From assembly GCA_011525805.1 (NCBI GenBank), contig WYBR01000098.1, forward strand, positions 1 through 64,000: a stretch of DNA of 64,000 bases. The letters run 5' to 3'. Under the pieces are notes generated by a model. That model worked only from the letters and a program-made list of their open reading frames with translations. It did no database searches and was not told the DNA's origin. The translations under genes and the position numbers were made by a program. Origin of the DNA: Vicinamibacteraceae bacterium (GTDB taxonomy: Bacteria; Planctomycetota; Phycisphaerae; Phycisphaerales; UBA5793). Of the stretch, positions 22,312 through 64,000 are shown piece after piece; position 1 is the first letter of the stretch; each line of letters begins with the position of its first letter.

Positions 22312-22333
22312 ACGTGCTTCGCGCCGGGCGTCG

Positions 22334-22437
22334 GGTGGCATGGCCTGGCGCTTCGCCTGGCTATGCCAAGCAGGCAAGGACGTTCGATCGCGTTTGCCGA
22401 GAGGGCATAGCGACGCGAAGCGCGACGCCATGCCACC
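22334..22437. repeat. Inverted pair of REP-like palindromes (BIME type)
   Basis: Two ~34-nt imperfect palindromes in opposite orientation (22334-22367 and 22404-22437) around a 36-nt spacer. Each begins or ends with GGTGGCAT/ATGCCACC and has a GCGCTTCGC-like apex. The right-hand unit plus part of the spacer is the same sequence as the three 63-bp units at 23121-23307, and a diverged pair occurs at 63573-63676. They flank a RAYT transposase gene, the known association of REP elements. Confidence 0.85.
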
Positions 22438-22478
22438 CCGGATAGACCTGGAAGGCGAGTCATGCGGCTATGCTGATC

Positions 22479-23120: not shown

Positions 23121-23307
23121 AGGGACGTTCGATCGCGTTTGCCGAGAGGGCATAGCGACGCGAAGCGCGACGCCATGCCACCCAGGGACGTTCGATCGCG
23201 TTTGCCGAGAGGGCATAGCGACGCGAAGCGCGACGCCATGCCACCCAGGGACGTTCGATCGCGCTTGCAAACTCGGCATAGCGGCGCGAGGCGCGACGCC
23301 ATGCCAC
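23121..23307. repeat. Three tandem 63-bp REP-containing units
   Basis: Units start at 23121, 23184 and 23247, all beginning AGGGACGTTCGATCGCG. The first two are identical or nearly so; the third is diverged and a little shorter. Each carries a ~31-nt imperfect palindrome running from GGCATAGCG to CGCCATGCC. A fourth copy lies at about 22378-22438. The tandem run sits between the RAYT stop and the convergent rplS stop. Confidence 0.92.
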
Positions 23308-23319
23308 ACGCTCCCGCGC

Positions 23320-31081: not shown

Positions 31082-31471
31082 ATGAATGCGAACCGTTCAC
31101 GCGGAGTCGCGCTCATCGCGGCGCTGTCGCTGTCTCTTCTTACCACTCCAGCGCTGGCGCAGCCGGTGTTGACGGTCGAGGGATCGTGCCCCGGATCCAT
31201 GCGCGCTCTGGCTGAAGGGATGTACCCCCGCGCGGTCGTGTACCTTTACTTCTCGCCGGAACGCGGCTTCTACGAGTTTCCTCCGTTCCACATGTGCTAT
31301 GGCGTCGAAGTCGGGCTTAATGTGCATCGGCTCTACTACCTCGGGAGTACGCGTGCGGATGACTTCGGCACGGCGCTTTGGGAGGGCGATGCTGGGCCGC
31401 GCGCGTGCGGCGGCTTCATGCAGGCGATGGACAACCGCTGCCAAATCTCTAACGTCGTCCAAGTTCCGTAG
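31082..31471 (+). CDS. Small secreted repeat-family protein, copy 1
   Basis: 129 aa. Signal peptide ending ALAQP, then a single ~95-residue domain: LTVEGSCPG, VVYLYFSPERG, CYGVEVGLN, ACGGFMQAM, SNVVQVP. Four conserved Cys could form two disulfides. Most like copy 4. GGGGAG upstream supports the start. The same domain caps the propeller protein at the left edge of the window. Function unknown; probably a surface or periplasmic module. Confidence 0.8.
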   Translation: MNANRSRGVALIAALSLSLLTTPALAQPVLTVEGSCPGSMRALAEGMYPRAVVYLYFSPERGFYEFPPFHMCYGVEVGLNVHRLYYLGSTRADDFGTALWEGDAGPRACGGFMQAMDNRCQISNVVQVP

Positions 31472-31482
31472 GAGGGACTGCC

Positions 31483-31890
31483 ATGCACGCGGATTATTCA
31501 CACGGGCTGGCGCTCATCGCGGCGGGGGTCATGCCCATGTTGAGCGCGCCGGCGATGGCGCAGTACGAACCCGTGCTGTCGCTGGACGGGAGGTGTCCGG
31601 GAGTGATGCGGGCGGAAGTCAGTGGTGCGCGTCCGCGCAGCGGTCTCTCGCTGCTCTTCGCGTCGGAAACCGGGAGCGTGACAATCCCCTGGTTCTGGCA
31701 GCACTGTCCGGGCGTCGAACTGGGGCTCGGGCGGCGCAACCTGCGCGAAGTCGCGTCGGGAACCACTGACGAGTCCGGCAACCTCATCATCGAGGGCCGC
31801 GTCCGCTCCCGCGCCTGCGGCGGGTACCTTCAGGTGCTTACATTCCCCCTCGGCGGCTGCCTCACGAGCAATGTCGTGCAGATCGAGTGA
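31483..31890 (+). CDS. Small secreted repeat-family protein, copy 2
   Basis: 135 aa; signal peptide ending AMAQ, then the same domain in its most divergent form: LDGRCPGVM, LSLLFASETG, CPGVELGLG, ACGGYLQVL, SNVVQIE. Closest of the four to the C-terminal domain of the propeller protein at 3-2204 (both have ACGGYLQ). GGAGGG precedes ATG 31483. Begins 11 nt after copy 1. Confidence 0.8.
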   Translation: MHADYSHGLALIAAGVMPMLSAPAMAQYEPVLSLDGRCPGVMRAEVSGARPRSGLSLLFASETGSVTIPWFWQHCPGVELGLGRRNLREVASGTTDESGNLIIEGRVRSRACGGYLQVLTFPLGGCLTSNVVQIE

Positions 31891-32025
31891 CGGGCTGCAC
31901 CCGTCAGGAGGCGAAGGCAGGGTCAAGCCCCTGATGGACGCTCGGGGTGAGGCGGGGGCGAGGGTGCACAGTCTCGGTTGTGGGGGCGGAAAGGAGATGG
32001 TCATGAGTGCGAGACGATCACGCGG
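31870..32025. repeat. Duplicated intergenic spacer, copy A
   Basis: From the last codons of array copy 2 through the start of copy 3. It matches 32380-32534 closely at both ends (ATGTCGTGCAGATCGAGTGA at the left, GGCGGAAAGGAGA and GAGTGCGAGACGATCA at the right). It contains the hairpin GACGGG-CTGCA-CCCGTC (31889-31905) overlapping the stop codon. Marks the unit of a segmental tandem duplication. Confidence 0.85.
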
Positions 32026-32401
32026 TTTCACTCGTTGGTCCCTGTGCGCGGCGGGGGCGCTCGCCCTGTGGAGCGCTCCGGCGCTGGCGCAGCCGGTGCT
32101 GACGCTCGAAGGATCGTGCCCCGGACGGATGCTTGCGCAAGTCAGCGGAAGCAGCCCGCGCGGTGTAGTACGTCTCTACTTCTCCCCGCATCGCGGGTCG
32201 TATGCGTTTCCGCCCTTCCATCCCTGCTATGGTGTCGAGATCGGCCTGGACCCCCGACGAATTCAACACGTGGGGACGACGCGCGCCGATCAGGCCGGTA
32301 TCGCCAGATTCAACGGCGACGCCGGACCCGCTGCATGCGGAGGCTTCCTACAGGCGATGAGCGACTTTTGTGAGGTGACCAATGTCGTGCAGATCGAGTG
32401 A
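32003..32401 (+). CDS. Small secreted repeat-family protein, copy 3
   Basis: 132 aa; signal peptide ending ALAQP, then LTLEGSCPGRM, VVRLYFSPHRG, CYGVEIGLD, ACGGFLQAM, TNVVQIE. ATG 32003 has AAGGAG at 7 nt; ATG 31997 is too close to it. Its flanks are duplicated around copy 4, so copies 3 and 4 arose by tandem duplication of gene plus spacer. Confidence 0.82.
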   Translation: MSARRSRGFTRWSLCAAGALALWSAPALAQPVLTLEGSCPGRMLAQVSGSSPRGVVRLYFSPHRGSYAFPPFHPCYGVEIGLDPRRIQHVGTTRADQAGIARFNGDAGPAACGGFLQAMSDFCEVTNVVQIE

Positions 32402-32534
32402 CGGGCTGCACCCGTCAGGGGGCGAAGGCAGGGTCAAATCCCTGATGGACGGCCGGGATGAGGCGGGGGAGTCAGTGTACAACTTCAGCGACGGGGGGCG
32501 GAAAGGAGACAGCCATGAGTGCGAGACGATCAGT
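32380..32534. repeat. Duplicated intergenic spacer, copy B
   Basis: Second copy of the spacer at 31870-32025, with the same hairpin at 32399-32415 and the same AAAGGAGA ribosome-binding site; the middle part has diverged. Confidence 0.85.
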
Positions 32535-32904
32535 CAGGCTCGCCCTGTGGGGCTTGGGCGCGACGGTGCTTTGGGCTGCGCCGGCGATGGCGCAGCCGGT
32601 ACTCACGCTCGAAGGGTCGTGCCCCGGACCGATGCGCGCTCTGGCGGAGGGGATGCATCCGGAGGATGTTGTGTACCTGTACTTCTCGCCTGAGCGTGGC
32701 TCGTACACATTTCCACCGTTGCATCAATGTTATGGCGTCGAGGTTGGCCTGAACGTTCGTCGGCTTCACTATGTGGGCAGTACACGGGCAGATCCGAACG
32801 GGTTGGCAACGTGGGAAGGGACTGCTGGGCCGGCTGCATGTGGAGGCTTTCTCCAAGCCATGGACCGAGTCTGCAGAATCACGAATGTGGCAGAGATTCC
32901 GTGA
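32515..32904 (+). CDS. Small secreted repeat-family protein, copy 4
   Basis: 129 aa; signal peptide ending AMAQP, then LTLEGSCPGPM, VVYLYFSPERG, CYGVEVGLN, ACGGFLQAM, TNVAEIP. Its mature part is nearest to copy 1 (both MRALAEGM) while its upstream spacer is nearest to that of copy 3, which suggests gene conversion or repeated unequal exchange. Start ATG 32515 with AAAGGAG. Confidence 0.82.
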   Translation: MSARRSVRLALWGLGATVLWAAPAMAQPVLTLEGSCPGPMRALAEGMHPEDVVYLYFSPERGSYTFPPLHQCYGVEVGLNVRRLHYVGSTRADPNGLATWEGTAGPAACGGFLQAMDRVCRITNVAEIP

Positions 32905-36664: not shown

Positions 36665-36990
36665 TTCGATATCGCGTCAGTTGGGGGCAATGGTAGGAAG
36701 ACGCGCGGCGCGACGGACTCATCCCGCGAACCGGGCGTTCGTGCCGCAAGCCCCTGCGCCGCAGCCCGTTGACGATCGCCGCGGATCGCGCGCGTCGCGC
36801 CGGGCCGGTTCTGCGCAGGCGGCGGGGCTAGAATCGCAGCCGCGCGCCGGGCCGGGCGACGGGCGGCAAGCCGCCGGAGCGGATAGCCGATGGAGCATTG
36901 GCCGCGACGGTCGCCTCGGGGGGCGGCCGCGTCGATTATCGGCTTTCAGCCCACTCATTTCGAGCCTTCAGAAGACTCAAGGACCAACCC
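36665..36990. other. Divergent spacer between the phosphatase and ugd
   Basis: 326 nt. A -10-like TAGAAT lies at 36829-36834 reading toward ugd, without a clear -35. No gene or hairpin was recognised. The ugd frame is open upstream to 36898, but the extension is not family-like. Confidence 0.45.
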
Positions 36991-38322
36991 ATGCGCCTGA
37001 CCATGGTCGGAACCGGATACGTCGGACTGGTGACCGGAACCTGCTTCTCCAACACGGGCAACAAGGTTACGTGCCTCGACGTGGACGCCGGGAAGATCGA
37101 ACGCCTCAATCGCGGCGAGGTGCCGATCTATGAGCCCGGCCTCGATGAACTGATCCAGCGCAACGTCGCCTCGGGCCGGCTTTCCTTCACGACCGACGCC
37201 GAGCGGGCCTACGCCGGGGCGGAGGTGATCTTCATCTGCGTCGGCACGCCCAGCGATGCGCAGGGCAGGGCCGATCTCAAGTTCGTGCGCTCGGCCGCGG
37301 AGGCGATCGCCGCGGCGATCGAGTCGCTCGGGCCGGACCAGAGGCCCAAGACCGTGGTGGTGAAGTCCACGGTTCCGGTGGGCACGACGTTCATGGTGCG
37401 CGACCTCATTCGCGGCAAGACCCGCCACCCCTTCCACGTCGCCAACAACCCCGAGTTTCTCAAGGAAGGCGATGCGATCAGCGACTTCAACAAGCCCGAC
37501 CGCGTGGTGTGCGGCGTGGAGTCTGCGGAAGTCGGCGAGATGATGAAGGACCTCTACGACCCTTTCGTCCGCCAGGGCAATCCGATCTTCATCATGGACG
37601 TCCTGAGCAGCGAGATGGTCAAGTACGCCTCCAACGCCATGCTCGCGACGAAGATCTCCTTCATCAATGAGATCGCCAGCCTCTGCGACGCCTACGGCGC
37701 CAACATCAACCGCGTGCGCGAAGGGATGTGCTCGGACAGCCGCATCGGCAACCAGTTCCTCTATCCCGGGCTGGGCTACGGCGGCTCGTGCTTCCCCAAG
37801 GACACGCTCGCATGCGTCTCGATGGGAAAGCAGGCGGGCGTGCCGACGCGCCTGCTCCAGGCGGTGCATGACGTCAATCAGGAGCAGCGGGCGCTCTTCT
37901 TCCGCAAGATCAGCGAGGAGTTTAAGGGCGATCTGGCGGGCAAGACCTTCGCCTTCTGGGGCCTGGCGTTCAAGCCGCGAACCGACGACATCCGCGAGGC
38001 GCCGGCGATCACGCTGATCAACTGGGTGGCGGAGAAGGGCGGGAAGGTGCGCGCCTTTGACCGCGTCGCCGCCGCAAACACGAAGCGCGAACTCGGGTCG
38101 AAGGTGGAGATCGCCGACGACATGTACGCCTGCCTCGACGGGGCCGATGCGCTGGTCATCTGCACGGACTGGGACGAGTTCAAGAACCCGGACTGGGACG
38201 CGATGCGGGCGGCGCTGCGGCGACCGCTGATCTTCGACGGGCGCAACCTGTATCGCCGCCCCCACCTCGCGGAACTGGGCTTCACGTACATCTCGATCGG
38301 CAGGCACGCGGTGAGGCCGTAG
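36991..38322 (+). CDS. ugd: UDP-glucose 6-dehydrogenase
   Basis: 443-aa cytosolic enzyme oxidising UDP-glucose to UDP-glucuronate, a precursor for acidic polysaccharides. NAD-binding loop VGTGYVGLVTG at the N-terminus; IYEPGLDELI; SEMVKYASNA (catalytic Lys); catalytic Cys in GYGGSCFPKD; C-terminal UDP-binding domain (FWGLAFKPRTDDIREAP). AAGGACC precedes ATG 36991. It may supply the exopolysaccharide made at 4-15 kb. Confidence 0.96.
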   Translation: MRLTMVGTGYVGLVTGTCFSNTGNKVTCLDVDAGKIERLNRGEVPIYEPGLDELIQRNVASGRLSFTTDAERAYAGAEVIFICVGTPSDAQGRADLKFVRSAAEAIAAAIESLGPDQRPKTVVVKSTVPVGTTFMVRDLIRGKTRHPFHVANNPEFLKEGDAISDFNKPDRVVCGVESAEVGEMMKDLYDPFVRQGNPIFIMDVLSSEMVKYASNAMLATKISFINEIASLCDAYGANINRVREGMCSDSRIGNQFLYPGLGYGGSCFPKDTLACVSMGKQAGVPTRLLQAVHDVNQEQRALFFRKISEEFKGDLAGKTFAFWGLAFKPRTDDIREAPAITLINWVAEKGGKVRAFDRVAAANTKRELGSKVEIADDMYACLDGADALVICTDWDEFKNPDWDAMRAALRRPLIFDGRNLYRRPHLAELGFTYISIGRHAVRP

Positions 38323-38333
38323 CGTCGTAATCC

Positions 38334-38451
38334 GTAGGGTGCGTTGAGGCTTTGCGAAACGTACCACTTCGGCCCAGGCCGCGCCATTGATGGACAAGCC
38401 CGGTGCGACCGTCCATCCCGGTGCGTTTCGCAAAGCCTCAACGCACCCTAC
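38334..38451. repeat. Perfect 28-bp inverted repeat
   Basis: Arms at 38334-38361 and 38424-38451 are exact reverse complements (GTAGGGTGCGTTGAGGC at the left end of the first arm), separated by 62 nt. The right arm can also fold alone (GGTGCGTT...AACGCACC). It lies just after ugd. This GGTGCGTT...AACGCACC type is a familiar dispersed palindrome; here it has a BIME-like inverted pairing. It has no T-run. Confidence 0.88.
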
Positions 38452-38517: not shown

Positions 38518-38838
38518 ATGCACCGCTTGATTCGCTTTGCCGCCGTTTCGATTGTCTCGGGTCTGCTCATGGCTGCCGCGCCCCCTTCGGAGGGTCAGGG
38601 GGAGCACGGCGATGGTCACGCGGAGGACGCCGCCCATCACGACGCCGGCATGGAGTCGGCGGCGAAACTAGCCGTACACGAGCCGCCGGCGTGGTACGGC
38701 AAGGTGGTGACGGGCGCGGTGGTGCTCTTCGTCCTCGCGGCGACGCTCGGTTCGATCGCGGTGCTCACCAAGGCCCCCGAGCCGCAGGAGCCGGATCATC
38801 ATGACGACCACGGTCACGGCGGGCACGGGCACCACTGA
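38518..38838 (+). CDS. Small His-rich membrane protein
   Basis: 106 aa: a signal-like N-terminus (LIRFAAVSIVSGLLMAAAP), a His/Asp/Glu-rich periplasmic stretch (EHGDGHAEDAAHHDAG), one membrane helix (about residues 61-81, VVTGAVVLFVLAATLGSIAVL), and a His-rich tail (HHDDHGHGGHGHH). Both His clusters could bind Zn, Ni, Co or Cu. It overlaps the following methyltransferase start by 38 nt. No family recognised. Confidence 0.65.
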   Translation: MHRLIRFAAVSIVSGLLMAAAPPSEGQGEHGDGHAEDAAHHDAGMESAAKLAVHEPPAWYGKVVTGAVVLFVLAATLGSIAVLTKAPEPQEPDHHDDHGHGGHGHH

Positions 38839-39676
38839 CGCCGGCTTGCTCGGCGCTGTTCACTGCTGCGACAATCTCGATCTGCTGAACGCCCTGCCCG
38901 AGGCGTGCATCGACCTCGTCTACATCGATCCTCCCTTCAACACCGGCCGGGCGCAGCGCGGCAAAGATCGAAGCCGACCCCCCACGCCGGGGCAAAGGCT
39001 CGGCTCTGCCCCGGAGCCGCTCCAGGCCCAGGCGTGTCGCGAGAGACCTGCCACCTACGCCGACGCCTGGCCAAGTATCGCCGACTACCTCGACTTCATG
39101 CGCCCGCGGCTGGTCGAGATGCGCCGCGTGCTGCGATTGAGCGGTTCGATCCTCCTGCACTGCGACTGGCGCGCGTGCCATCACCTGCGGCTGCTGCTCG
39201 ACGACCTCTTCGGCCCGGAGCGGTTCGTGAATCACCTCGTCTGGTCGTACGGCCTTGGCGGCTCCTCGCCGCGGCGCTTCGCGCGCAAGCACGATGACAT
39301 TCTGTTCTACGCGAAAGGCGAGGGGTACTACTTCAGCCCGCCGCGCGTGCCCGCCACGAGCGCCCGGATGAAAGGGCTGACGAAGAAGGCGACGGACGTC
39401 CTCGACATCCCCTCGCTCAACAACATGGCGGCGGAGCGCACGGGCTATCCGACGCAGAAGCCCCTCGCGCTGCTGGAGGTGCTCATCGAGGCGTGCTGCC
39501 CGCCCGGCGGGGTCGTGGCCGATTTCTTTTGCGGCAGCGGCACGGCCCTGGTCGCGGCGGCGCGATCAAACCGGCGCTGGATCGGCTGCGACGTATCGGG
39601 GCAAGCGGCGGCGATCGCGAAGGCCGTCCTCGCGGCCGGATCGGGTCGATCGCCCCGGTCGGTGCGCGGCGCGTGA
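38801..39676 (+). CDS. Site-specific DNA methyltransferase (beta class, N4/N6)
   Basis: 291 aa. The catalytic motif DPPFNTG (about residues 43-49) precedes the SAM-binding DFFCGSGTALVAA (about 244-256), the beta-class order; TQKPLALLEVLIEA lies just before the SAM loop as usual. Between motif IV and YADAW is a Pro/Arg-rich stretch encoded by palindromic DNA (38987-39014), which may be a repeat insertion. No restriction endonuclease is adjacent, so it is probably an orphan enzyme. The target sequence cannot be told. Confidence 0.88.
   Translation: MTTTVTAGTGTTDAGLLGAVHCCDNLDLLNALPEACIDLVYIDPPFNTGRAQRGKDRSRPPTPGQRLGSAPEPLQAQACRERPATYADAWPSIADYLDFMRPRLVEMRRVLRLSGSILLHCDWRACHHLRLLLDDLFGPERFVNHLVWSYGLGGSSPRRFARKHDDILFYAKGEGYYFSPPRVPATSARMKGLTKKATDVLDIPSLNNMAAERTGYPTQKPLALLEVLIEACCPPGGVVADFFCGSGTALVAAARSNRRWIGCDVSGQAAAIAKAVLAAGSGRSPRSVRGA
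38987..39014. repeat. Palindrome inside the methyltransferase gene
   Basis: CCGGGGCA (38987-38994) pairs with TGCCCCGG (39007-39014). It lies in frame within a stretch of the protein that is variable in the family and sits between the catalytic motif and the first helix after it. Confidence 0.55.
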
Positions 39677-59264: not shown

Positions 59265-60335
59265 ATGCGATCCTGCTTTGAAGTCGATCCTCGAATCCGA
59301 GCGGTGCTGCCCGCGATGGACGCCCCTTTCTTCCAGGCGGGTCTCGCGGGGTATTCCGACGCGGCGATGCGACTGATCGCCCGGCGGCACGGGGCGCCTT
59401 ACTGCATCACCGAGGCCCTGCTCGACCGCATCCTCCTGGCGGGCGGCAAGGGCCTGGCCAAGGCCGATCTCGAAGCGCTCGCCGACAACGTGCCAGCCAG
59501 CGCCGAGGATCATCCGCTCGCGGGTCAGATCATCGGCACCGAGCCGCACGAGATGGCTGCGGCGGGCCGACTTCTCGCGGGCATGGGTTATGACGTGATC
59601 GACGTCAACCTCGCCTGCCCCGTGCGCAAGATCGCGCGCAAGTGCCGCGGCGGGCATTTCCTCGCGCACCCTGACGATGCGATCGAGGTGCTCAAGGCGG
59701 TGCGCGACGCCGTCCCGCATCGCATCCCCACGACGGTCAAACTCCGCCGCGGCTCGGACGATTCCAGCGAAGCGGCCGACAACTTCGAACGCATCTTCAT
59801 CGCGCTTTACGACCTCGGCTACCGCTGGGCGACGGTGCACGGGCGCACGGTCGAGCAGAAGTACAACGGGCCAAGCCGTTGGGAGTTTCTGCGCGACCTC
59901 ACGAACCGGCACCCCGACAAAGTGATCTTCGGCTCGGGCGACATCTGGAGCGCCGGCGACATCTTCCGCATGATCGAGGAGACCGGCGTGCAGGCGGTGA
60001 GCGTGGCGCGCGGCTGCATCGGCAATCCGTGGATCTTCCGCCAGGCGCGGGAGATCATGAGCAGCGTGGAGCGTGGGCTTCCAGCCCGTGCAAGCGAACC
60101 GACTCTCCCAACCCTCGACGAACAGCGCGAGGTGCTCCTCGAACACTTCTCCCTGTCAGTGGCCCTGCACGGCGAGAACGCGGCGGGGAAGATGATGCGC
60201 AAGTTCGGCATCAGGTTCGCCGCCCATCACCCGCAGGCGGAGCAGGTGAAGAACGAGTTCATCAAAGTGCACACGACGGCGGACTGGCGCGCGGTGATTG
60301 AGCGGTGGTATGCGGCGGAGCCCGTCATGGCGTGA
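59265..60335 (+). CDS. tRNA-dihydrouridine synthase
   Basis: 356-aa FMN enzyme reducing uridines in the tRNA D-loop. Catalytic Cys in NLACPVRKIARKCRGG; FMN-phosphate text TTVKLRRG and VHGRTVEQKYNGP; GSGDIWSAGD and ARGCIGNPWIF are family landmarks. About residues 268-275 (VERGLPAR) are encoded by a palindromic repeat (60071-60091). Its last 21 codons are duplicated 1.8 kb downstream (62052-62114). Subfamily (A, B or C) not resolved. Confidence 0.93.
   Translation: MRSCFEVDPRIRAVLPAMDAPFFQAGLAGYSDAAMRLIARRHGAPYCITEALLDRILLAGGKGLAKADLEALADNVPASAEDHPLAGQIIGTEPHEMAAAGRLLAGMGYDVIDVNLACPVRKIARKCRGGHFLAHPDDAIEVLKAVRDAVPHRIPTTVKLRRGSDDSSEAADNFERIFIALYDLGYRWATVHGRTVEQKYNGPSRWEFLRDLTNRHPDKVIFGSGDIWSAGDIFRMIEETGVQAVSVARGCIGNPWIFRQAREIMSSVERGLPARASEPTLPTLDEQREVLLEHFSLSVALHGENAAGKMMRKFGIRFAAHHPQAEQVKNEFIKVHTTADWRAVIERWYAAEPVMA
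60071..60091. repeat. Palindrome inside the dus gene
   Basis: GCGTGGGCT-TCC-AGCCCGTGC, a 9-bp stem with two G-T pairs. It encodes residues between two domains of the enzyme in frame. The GGGCT-TCC-AGCCC motif is a common dispersed repeat type. Confidence 0.55.
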
Positions 60336-60337
60336 GT
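60274..60337. repeat. Left copy of a 64-nt direct repeat (3' end of dus)
   Basis: Aligned without gaps to 62053-62116, mostly identical (GGTGGTATGCGGCGGAG is shared exactly). The pair brackets the FG-GAP gene. Confidence 0.85.
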
Positions 60338-60342
60338 CCGGC

Positions 60343-62051: not shown

Positions 62052-62114
62052 GCGACGACAGACTGGCGCGCGGTGATCGAGCGGTGGTATGCGGCGGAGG
62101 CCGTGGAGGTGTGA
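62052..62114 (+). pseudogene. Remnant of a second dus 3' end
   Basis: The last 21 codons of dus recur here in frame: ATTDWRAVIERWYAAEAVEV then TGA, against TTADWRAVIERWYAAEPVMA in dus. No upstream part of dus remains, as the FG-GAP gene ends 10 nt earlier. The next gene's ribosome-binding site lies inside this remnant. Confidence 0.8.
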
Positions 62115-62117
62115 GTC

Positions 62118-62691: not shown

Positions 62692-63525
62692 TTGCCGCGG
62701 CTGCACATTGTCATTCCGGTCTACAACGAGGAGGCGACGCTGGCGGCGTGCCTGGCGCGCGTCGCCGCCGCGCCGCTGCCGGCCGGATGGCCGCGGTCGC
62801 TCATCCTCGTCAACGACGCGTCGACCGACGGCACTCGGGCTTTGCTGGAAAGCCTTTTCACCGCAGAGAGCGCTGAGATCGCGGAGCAGAGTCCTGATTC
62901 TGCTGCGAAGGCCGGTCCCCTGCCCTCCTCCGCGTTCTCTGCGGTGATCACGCTTCATCACGACCACAATCGCGGCAAGGGCGCGGCGATCCGCACCGGC
63001 TTCGCCGCCGCGCTCGAAGCAGCCGCGGCGACCGATGTGATTCTCGTGCAGGACGCCGACCTCGAGTACAACCCGGCCGACTGGCAGCGGCTGCTCGAAC
63101 CGATCGCGCAGGGCCGCGCGCGGGTCGTCTTCGGCACGCGCTTCGGGCGGCACTATCGCCCCACCACTATGGCCCTGCGCCTGCACGCCTTCGGCAACCG
63201 CCTGCTCACCGAGATGAGCAACTGGCGCACGGGACTGCGCGTGACGGACATGGAGTGCGGCTACAAAGCCTTCACCGCTGACGTTCTGCGGCGCATCGTG
63301 CCGATGCTCACGGAGGATCGCTTCGGCATCGAGCCGGAGGTCGCCGCGGCGGTCGCGGCGATCGGCGAGCGCGTCGAGGAGGTCGCTGTGTCCTACGACC
63401 CGCGCAGCGTCGGAGAGGGAAAGAAGATCAAGTGGTCGGACGGCTGGGCGGCGCTGCGCGTCATCCGGCGCGGCGTGCGCGGCCGCACGGGGCGCTCATC
63501 GGGTGCGAAGGACGACCACGGGTGA
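62692..63525 (+). CDS. Family 2 glycosyltransferase (polyprenyl-phosphate mannosyl/glucosyl type)
   Basis: 277 aa, DPM1-like GT-A fold: IVIPVYNEEATL, LVNDASTDGT (nucleotide-binding), NRGKGAAIRTGF, VQDADLEYNP (DxD), GTRFG and DMECGYKAF. It loads a polyprenyl-phosphate with a sugar for later transfer. Start TTG 62692 (MPRLHIVIPVYN), no good ribosome-binding site. Between LESLF and ITLHHDHN is a ~27-residue insert (AESAEIAEQS...) encoded by an inverted repeat. Its TGA overlaps the next ATG. Confidence 0.9.
   Translation: MPRLHIVIPVYNEEATLAACLARVAAAPLPAGWPRSLILVNDASTDGTRALLESLFTAESAEIAEQSPDSAAKAGPLPSSAFSAVITLHHDHNRGKGAAIRTGFAAALEAAAATDVILVQDADLEYNPADWQRLLEPIAQGRARVVFGTRFGRHYRPTTMALRLHAFGNRLLTEMSNWRTGLRVTDMECGYKAFTADVLRRIVPMLTEDRFGIEPEVAAAVAAIGERVEEVAVSYDPRSVGEGKKIKWSDGWAALRVIRRGVRGRTGRSSGAKDDHG
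62859..62946. repeat. Inverted repeat inside the GT2 gene
   Basis: CACCGCAGAGA (62859-62869) pairs with TCTCTGCGGTG (62936-62946), and CGCGGAG (62880-62886) with CTCCGCG (62928-62934). The ~88-nt element keeps the reading frame and interrupts a conserved stretch of the glycosyltransferase. CGCAGAGA-type repeats are widely dispersed in bacterial genomes; a fragment lies at 30856-30883. Confidence 0.75.
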
Positions 63526-64000
63526 TGGACGAGCGCGGCGAATCAACATCGCGGCCGGACGGGGCGCAGGAGGGTGGCCTGGCCTGGCGCTTCGCATGGC
63601 TCTGCCGTGCGGGCAATCGCGTCAGAACGGCTCTAAACGCTGAGCATGGCGACGCGAAGCGCGACGCCATGCTGCCCGGCACGCGGTCGCGCCTGCTGCT
63701 CAAGATCGTCGGCTTCATCCTCGGCCTCGGCCTGCTTGCGTGGGTCACTCAGCGCGCCGTCTCGCGCCAGCAGTTCAGCGGCCTGACGGAGGCGGCGTGG
63801 TGGCAGTTTGCCTTGCTGCTCCTGTGCACCGTCGTGAGCGTGCTCGCCAACGGCGCGATCTTCTGGACGATCATCCGGCCGGCGGCGCCGCTCGGGTTCT
63901 GGCCGATCCAGGCGGTGAATGCGGCGGTGAGCCTGGTCAACTACAGCCCGGTGCGCATCGGCGTGGCCCTGCGCTTCGTGCATCATCGGCGCGTGGACGA
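63525..64000 (+). CDS. Polytopic membrane protein, 3' partial (flippase-like/LPG-synthase type)
   Basis: Runs off the right edge. ATG 63525 overlaps the GT2 stop as TGATG, so it is probably coupled to it. About residues 17-50 are encoded by an in-frame REP pair (63573-63676). Then two membrane segments (LLLKIVGFILGLGLLAWVTQ, FALLLLCTVVSVLANGAIFW) and a third that begins with FWPIQAVNAAVSLVNYSPVR, reminiscent of the lysylphosphatidylglycerol-synthase transmembrane family often next to GT2 genes. An alternative start, ATG 63669, would exclude the repeat. Confidence 0.65.
   Translation, partial: MDERGESTSRPDGAQEGGLAWRFAWLCRAGNRVRTALNAEHGDAKRDAMLPGTRSRLLLKIVGFILGLGLLAWVTQRAVSRQQFSGLTEAAWWQFALLLLCTVVSVLANGAIFWTIIRPAAPLGFWPIQAVNAAVSLVNYSPVRIGVALRFVHHRRVD
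63573..63676. repeat. Inverted pair of REP-like palindromes inside a gene
   Basis: Units at 63573-63606 and 63643-63676 in opposite orientation around a 36-nt spacer, the same layout as 22334-22437 with many substitutions. GACGCGAAGCGCGACGCCAT is shared exactly. Lies in the 5' part of the membrane-protein gene. Confidence 0.82.

Follow-up and report, generated by a model that had tools for sequence, protein, structure and literature searches.

Background

Dispersed palindromes that become part of proteins have been described in several bacteria. In Rickettsia, the palindromes known as RPEs lie in frame in conserved proteins, where they are tolerated, and the RPE-bearing product of the gmk gene is made and active; ERIC and YPAL fusions provide further precedents (PMC2229807). 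Intragenic REPs were surveyed by Di Nocera et al. in 2013, who found them richest in Opitutus of the PVC superphylum and observed that two Xanthomonas carry different REPs at roughly one position of recB (PMC3733652). The class 3 TnpA-Y1 transposases, characterized by the motifs NHVH, W[TA] and Y....Q, are found in Planctomycetes and Acidobacteria and are flanked by high-copy structures (PMC6006769).

The window analysed here is a whole stretch of 64,000 nucleotides, to which all bare positions below refer. The initial annotation of this window had proposed that hairpin DNA is translated as linkers in five of its genes, in the manner of the RPEs, and knew of no such description for planctomycetes. 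Intragenic REPs and the REP families of the planctomycete Rhodopirellula were already published (PMC3733652). Our data make it very probable that the hairpins are mobile repeats, several families of them REPs, whose gene-breaking copies have been lost and whose frame-keeping copies are translated as inserts, and that some RAYT units are resident in essential genes.

Genomes and methods

The present genome (G000) is 4.54 Mb long and forms the genus set together with G001 to G004, the genus tree being ((G000,G002),(G001,(G003,G004))). Most of the compared genomes are MAGs. Several REP-like families were discovered de novo from 13-mers in 43% of G000, and the repeat census covers the same 1.97 Mb, in which a home-made hexamer gene caller predicts 1539 genes and 84% coding sequence. 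The pooled copy count uses eleven arm patterns, some of which come from overlapping families. Searches for the family F1 with three mismatches were half noise (31 matches versus 19 in the control), and hence two mismatches were adopted. Orthologues of the core genes were found in five relatives by one concatenated search.

Palindromes in frame in five genes of the window

The GT2 glycosyltransferase gene at 62692-63525 on the forward strand (277 aa; Pfam PF00535, Glycos_transf_2), orthologues of which are present in 41/41 genomes searched, carries a palindrome within its reading frame. The element has TTCACCGCAGAG-type arms of the family F1 and occupies 62857-62948 (~92 nt), with the 21-nt arms TTCACCGCAGAGAGCGCTGAG and CTCCGCGTTCTCTGCGGTGAT; the GT2 frame is open throughout and reads FTAESAEIAE...SAFSAVI. 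Folded as single-stranded DNA it reaches -30.5 kcal/mol (z -4.96), a stability equalled by none of 200 shuffles. The F1 sequence TTCACCGCAGAGNNCGCNGAG has 55 matches in the genome versus 13 for the control, and a check of F1 as a candidate MITE found the inverted arms present. Where the GT2 protein of G000 has FTAESAEIAEQSPDSAAKAGPLPSSAFSAVI, ~27 residues are absent exactly at this point in G001, G003 and more distant genomes, while G002 and G004 have inserts at the same point with partly decayed or different middles. The insertion does not appear to have been perfectly clean, because ~4 ancestral residues seem to have been replaced by the insert.

The next gene (63525-64000, forward strand) runs past the end of the window and resembles the transmembrane part of a lysylphosphatidylglycerol synthase, with a weak match to Pfam PF03706 of 31.4 bits, just under the cut-off of 33.4. 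It opens with an ATG at 63525 that overlaps the stop codon of GT2, an arrangement kept in 5/5 genus members. An inverted REP dimer of the family F2 lies in frame at 63572-63677 in the hydrophilic N-terminal leader, giving ~35 extra residues that G000 alone has among the five genus members; the dimer folds as single-stranded DNA with z -2.48. A second candidate start, the one preferred by our gene caller, is an ATG within the right arm of the REP (about 63670), so the protein may begin there in a shortened form. The same family is found between genes of the window as a second dimer at 22333-22438 and as tandem REP units with 63-bp spacing at 23149-23312. The F2 REP core with at most 3 mismatches has 33 matches in the genome, and the reversed-pattern control has 0. 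In the sampled 43% of G000, 45 of the 48 F2 REP copies (about 94%) are intergenic, and the 27 intergenic dimers are 102-125 nt long with GTGG at their outer ends, as judged by inspection.

Three other genes of the window have hairpins in frame. F4 repeats (GGTAV...DGRDARAT) occupy 411-507 in an SBBP-type gene at 24-2204, with other copies elsewhere; the insert is ~31 residues long, and the matches of many relatives break off at residue ~124-131 and restart at ~162. The peptides of this site recur around one type of RAYT (type B) in valyl-tRNA synthetase (ValRS). An F6 hairpin at 38987-39014 lies in a DNA methylase gene (38801-39676), whose product has 18-20 residues more than those of G001, G003 and G004 at this site, the insert of G002 being longer. 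An F5 hairpin at 60071-60091 lies in a dihydrouridine synthase gene (59265-60335) and corresponds to ~8 residues absent in eight relatives; G032 has at the same point an insert of SRDRQGA-unit repeats, which differs from F5. Judged by folding energy alone, neither the 38987 nor the 60071 hairpin stands out (z -1.0 and -1.4), and both are counted as elements because relatives do not have them and similar copies occur elsewhere, though the family of the latter has only two copies in the sampled 43%. The initial annotation had placed in-frame hairpins in GT2, in the start of the next gene and at 411-503, 38987-39014 and 60071-60091. Alignment with relatives bears this out at all five sites and extends it to a dozen more genes, relatives being without the extra residues at the hairpins, and all of the repeats belong to dispersed families.

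The window also has other repeats. A 32-nt inverted repeat, 97% complementary with a 54-nt spacer, lies at 38334-38451 directly after the ORF 36898-38322. Through a 65-nt direct repeat (60274-60338 and 62053-62117, 88%), the last part of the dihydrouridine synthase gene recurs beyond the following gene. Three diverged ~300-nt tandem copies at 31148-32880 are probably duplicated small genes.

Dispersed families and their reading frames

The repeat families of this genome are found mainly outside genes. In the sampled 43% of G000, where R1, R2 and R6 have 49, 56 and 27 copies, 58 of the 293 pooled repeat copies (20%) fall within predicted CDSs versus 84% of the sequence being coding. Certain families are often genic, with 8/13 copies of F4b and 5/10 of F6 inside CDSs. 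The elements have features of REPs, being dispersed, short and imperfect palindromes that are predominantly extragenic (80% outside CDSs when pooled), with inverted dimers in F2. At least ten families are involved rather than one element class, several of them RAYT-linked REPs. The initial annotation is supported as to RPE-like in-frame insertion, which the gaps in relatives show, and not as to a single element class.

The initial annotation had further suggested an element class that can insert into genes without breaking them and is perhaps selected to stay open in both orientations. We consider this improbable. It would agree with the F1 consensus, in which 4/6 frames are open by design according to hand translation, with R6 being read in two ways (PLPHGRGS in 5 cases, TSRDREGA in 4), and with F4b being read mostly as DGRDARS (6/8). 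However, four frames are in use for R1 (HDSQSLIVG, PRFAEPHRG, AIRKASSW and a form on the opposite strand) and more than one for F1, many of the genic R6 and F4 cases come from the SBBP paralogues, which are repeated genes, and the spans of the intergenic F2 dimers (102, 103, 125) are not all multiples of three; element span modulo three is in general uninformative. The small share of copies in CDSs and the varied frames give no support to selection for reading frame in the short elements and indicate that these are not selected to insert in genes. The genic copies may rather be the survivors of insertion, with the purging of harmful insertions accounting for the distribution.

Linkage of the repeats to RAYT genes

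Several of the families flank RAYT (Y1_Tnp) genes, which are encoded in 5/5 genus genomes. Free RAYTs are flanked by R2 (C6:24626 and C30:559 in G000, and C152 in G002), R1 (C99:13325), R4 (C40:16418) and R6 (C86:300). The chance that R1, R2 or R6 occurs on both sides of a random 600-bp stretch is 0.0012 (0.12%). R1, R2, R4 and R6 are thus linked to RAYTs directly, and F4 through the type B RAYT of ValRS. No gap-free inverted repeats were found beside the strongest RAYTs, and no RAYT flanked by F1 or by F2 was found among the RAYT loci examined. F1b repeats and an R6 tandem lie near one RAYT (C101, locus L096), which we do not accept as proof of linkage. Since the arrangement is that of the REPtrons of other bacteria (PMC3733652, PMC6006769), the flanking families R1, R2, R4 and R6 may well be moved by RAYT-driven transposition.

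Inserts in core genes and reuse of linkers

Core genes of the genus have also received repeats. The hosts, as named by their sequences, include MutS, MurD, UppP, LeuRS, PheT, MnmA, NuoJ, ThiC, Mfd, the B12-dependent ribonucleotide reductase and cysteine desulfurase. Relatives have gaps at the insert sites of GT2, the dihydrouridine synthase, the methylase, the SBBP-type protein, MutS, cysteine desulfurase, MurD, MnmA, PheT, NuoJ and the ribonucleotide reductase. In the alignment with relatives, 20 additional residues of MutS are confined to G000 and G002, and cysteine desulfurase has an insert that is ~57 residues long in G000, with a related one in G002 but in no others; the MurD insert is ~55 residues long. 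If translated, these inserts are probably tolerated by the enzymes.

The same linker is often used by different repeats. The UppP linker has the F2 REP peptide in G000 and G002 and HSRAGGNP in G003 and G004. In the ribonucleotide reductase, the linker is occupied by R6 in G000 and G004, by GGTGVSPV in G001 and by PSPQPSPAGRGS in G002, and it has no insert in G003. MnmA has R6 in G000 and G004, and it is absent from their sisters G002 and G003. As one linker is used by unrelated families across species, the simplest reading of these sequences is a small number of insert-tolerant loops that are struck repeatedly.

One could argue instead that the repeats are ancestral coding sequence that was precisely deleted in the relatives. 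The GT2 insert lends this some weight, since on the genus tree its presence in G000, G002 and G004 and its absence from G001 and G003 call for two gains, or for one gain plus losses. But the outgroups have no inserts in GT2, the dihydrouridine synthase and the methylase, the inserts match dispersed families, and those of MutS, cysteine desulfurase, PheT and NuoJ fit a single gain in the ancestor of G000 and G002. Ancestral sequence is therefore a highly improbable source of the repeats.

Transposases within tRNA synthetases and methylases

Complete RAYTs are found within ValRS. Our RAYT search matched ORFs of 1271-1373 aa, each being a ValRS whose loop from ...DDRMRGNALRAM to RYAKTFENWHENIRDWCISRQ holds a complete RAYT with repeats on both sides in the reading frame. 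Loci of this kind include G000:C60 (L288), G001:C33 (L289), G004:C23 (L290), L303 and L311. The RAYT of G000 and G032 is of type A, which is class-3-like, and is accompanied by R6 peptides; that of G001 and G005 is of type B with F4-type peptides (GGTAVSAV, GTGVSPV, DGRDARST); and in G004 the RAYT is of a type A that has diverged and is accompanied by SPKRERGF repeats. The ValRS proteins of G003, G007, G008 and G016 have no RAYT. We surveyed 110 genomes of the order and examined 40 ValRS proteins, partly picked for long frames: 13 have loops of 236-325 residues, all with a RAYT, and 27 have loops of at most 125 residues, none with a RAYT. At least 14 of the 110 genomes, including G091 (L436), have a RAYT in ValRS.

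The valS gene of G000 is split by contig ends (the starts of C60 and C87) at AEHGRPARTN repeats in its frame, so repeat families can break an assembly inside essential genes. The same combination of RAYT and ValRS occurs in the single-contig assemblies of G032 and G067, which speaks against an assembly error.

The embedded domains retain their catalytic residues. The catalytic H-x-H and Tyr are invariant in the RAYT alignments, and the type A alignment A1 has invariant H-x-H, Trp and Tyr/Gln columns, which correspond to the class 3 TnpA-Y1 motifs (NHVH, W[TA], Y....Q). The type B domain aligns nearly end to end with the E. coli TnpArep 4er8 (E 1.2e-5). The AlphaFold2 model of one ValRS-RAYT protein is poor overall (mean pLDDT 61.7, pTM 0.38) and informative only in that the RAYT core has a pLDDT of about 80 and the REP linkers of about 23-40.

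ValRS is one of several host proteins. Among the best 80 type A RAYT loci in GTDB genomes, 14 are in ValRS, 10 in AlaRS (L381, L383, L388, L389, L395, L396, L401, L419, L420 and L423), 7 in DUF1156-type DNA methylases of several phyla by record title (L376, L385, L387, L393, L399, L404 and L414), 3 in other long ORFs (L390, L392 and L407), and 46 are free. One AlaRS (L381) has two RAYTs. The AlaRS inserts lie near the model positions 256-262, 373-379 and 714-722. In the examples run through Pfam, the host domain and Y1_Tnp occur together in a single protein.

These RAYTs might be spliced out at the RNA or protein level, or the genes might be broken with another copy in use. It is surprising to find ~250 residues inserted in an essential enzyme, and a precedent is offered by inteins, which persist at a single conserved position in essential genes and are patchily present. 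Yet the frame is open across the host, the repeats and the RAYT, and Pfam finds no intein domain. The site is a loop whose length varies (44-125 aa) even without a RAYT. Moreover, valS is single-copy in each genome where it is intact, with one match over the cut-off, and no second alaS copy was found in nine of the AlaRS-RAYT genomes. We regard splicing or a broken gene as unlikely, and the RAYT is more plausibly kept as an internal part of the host protein.

Most of the embedded RAYTs do not have a start codon of their own nearby. A start codon lies at most 20 codons upstream of the RAYT domain in 46/46 free and 7/31 embedded RAYTs (p 5e-14, a value that ignores kinship). This difference speaks for elements adapted to being read through, an idea which is not supported for the short repeats and returns here for the RAYT-bearing copies in synthetases. 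The RAYTs also group by host gene on their tree, with 2 changes among the 17 ValRS rows and 3 changes among the 10 AlaRS rows, and the host and RAYT trees have 3 of 11 splits in common versus 0.19 expected. Such clustering and common splits fit a long residence of the RAYTs in their host genes with some replacement.

A model for in-frame repeats

The hairpins would be short non-autonomous mobile repeats, several families of which are REPs flanking RAYT (Y1 HUH) transposases. Copies would land widely and the gene-breaking ones would be lost, leaving most survivors between genes, while a minority that lies in frame in flexible linkers or termini would persist and be translated as disordered inserts. 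Some complete RAYTs with their flanking REPs would have entered a tolerant loop of ValRS, AlaRS and the DUF1156 methylase, where they would persist as a domain within the host protein. We are evenly divided on a further reading, namely that a REP transposon lineage lives in frame within essential genes, with the RAYT, often start-less, translated solely as a loop of ValRS, AlaRS or the DUF1156 protein, the REPs as its disordered linkers, and the short palindromes in other genes as its non-autonomous offspring.

Core enzymes across a bacterial order may thus acquire residues from mobile repeats, which are mainly known as intergenic clutter, with the same loops receiving them repeatedly. If RAYTs are indeed resident in tRNA synthetases, they would represent a new mode of transposase persistence, being expressed by an essential gene and hard to delete from it; our full-text literature search, with most subscription journals outside its scope, found no report of such RAYTs. 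The cost or benefit of the inserts to the enzymes and the choice of sites by REPs become testable. Protein motifs such as DGRDARST, PLPHGRGS and SRDREGA can be mobile DNA, which should be kept in mind in annotation.

Comparison with known systems

The elements resemble the Rickettsia RPEs in being dispersed palindromes inserted in frame with gaps in relatives, a likeness of insertion pattern with no claim of RPE membership. They differ from RPEs in having many unrelated families, several with an identified RAYT, and in the full transposase genes in frame. With the REP, BIME and REPtron systems (PMC3733652) they share imperfect palindromes, inverted dimers, the GTGG foot (in F2), REP-flanked RAYTs and a mostly intergenic location with some in-frame copies, including in repair genes. 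Unlike those, the present case is new at the phylum level, with at least ten families in one genome, linkers reused by unrelated families across the genus and whole RAYTs in synthetases.

The type A RAYTs resemble the class 3 TnpA-Y1 transposases in their motifs, their occurrence in Planctomycetes and their high-copy flanks (PMC6006769). The class 3 genes are free in that study, whose text does not have the terms 'synthetase', 'fused' or 'in frame', whereas many of ours are embedded and mostly start-less. Residence in an essential gene and patchy presence are shared with inteins and similar elements, but the RAYTs have no splicing domain, occupy variable loops instead of active sites, and encode a transposase rather than a homing endonuclease.
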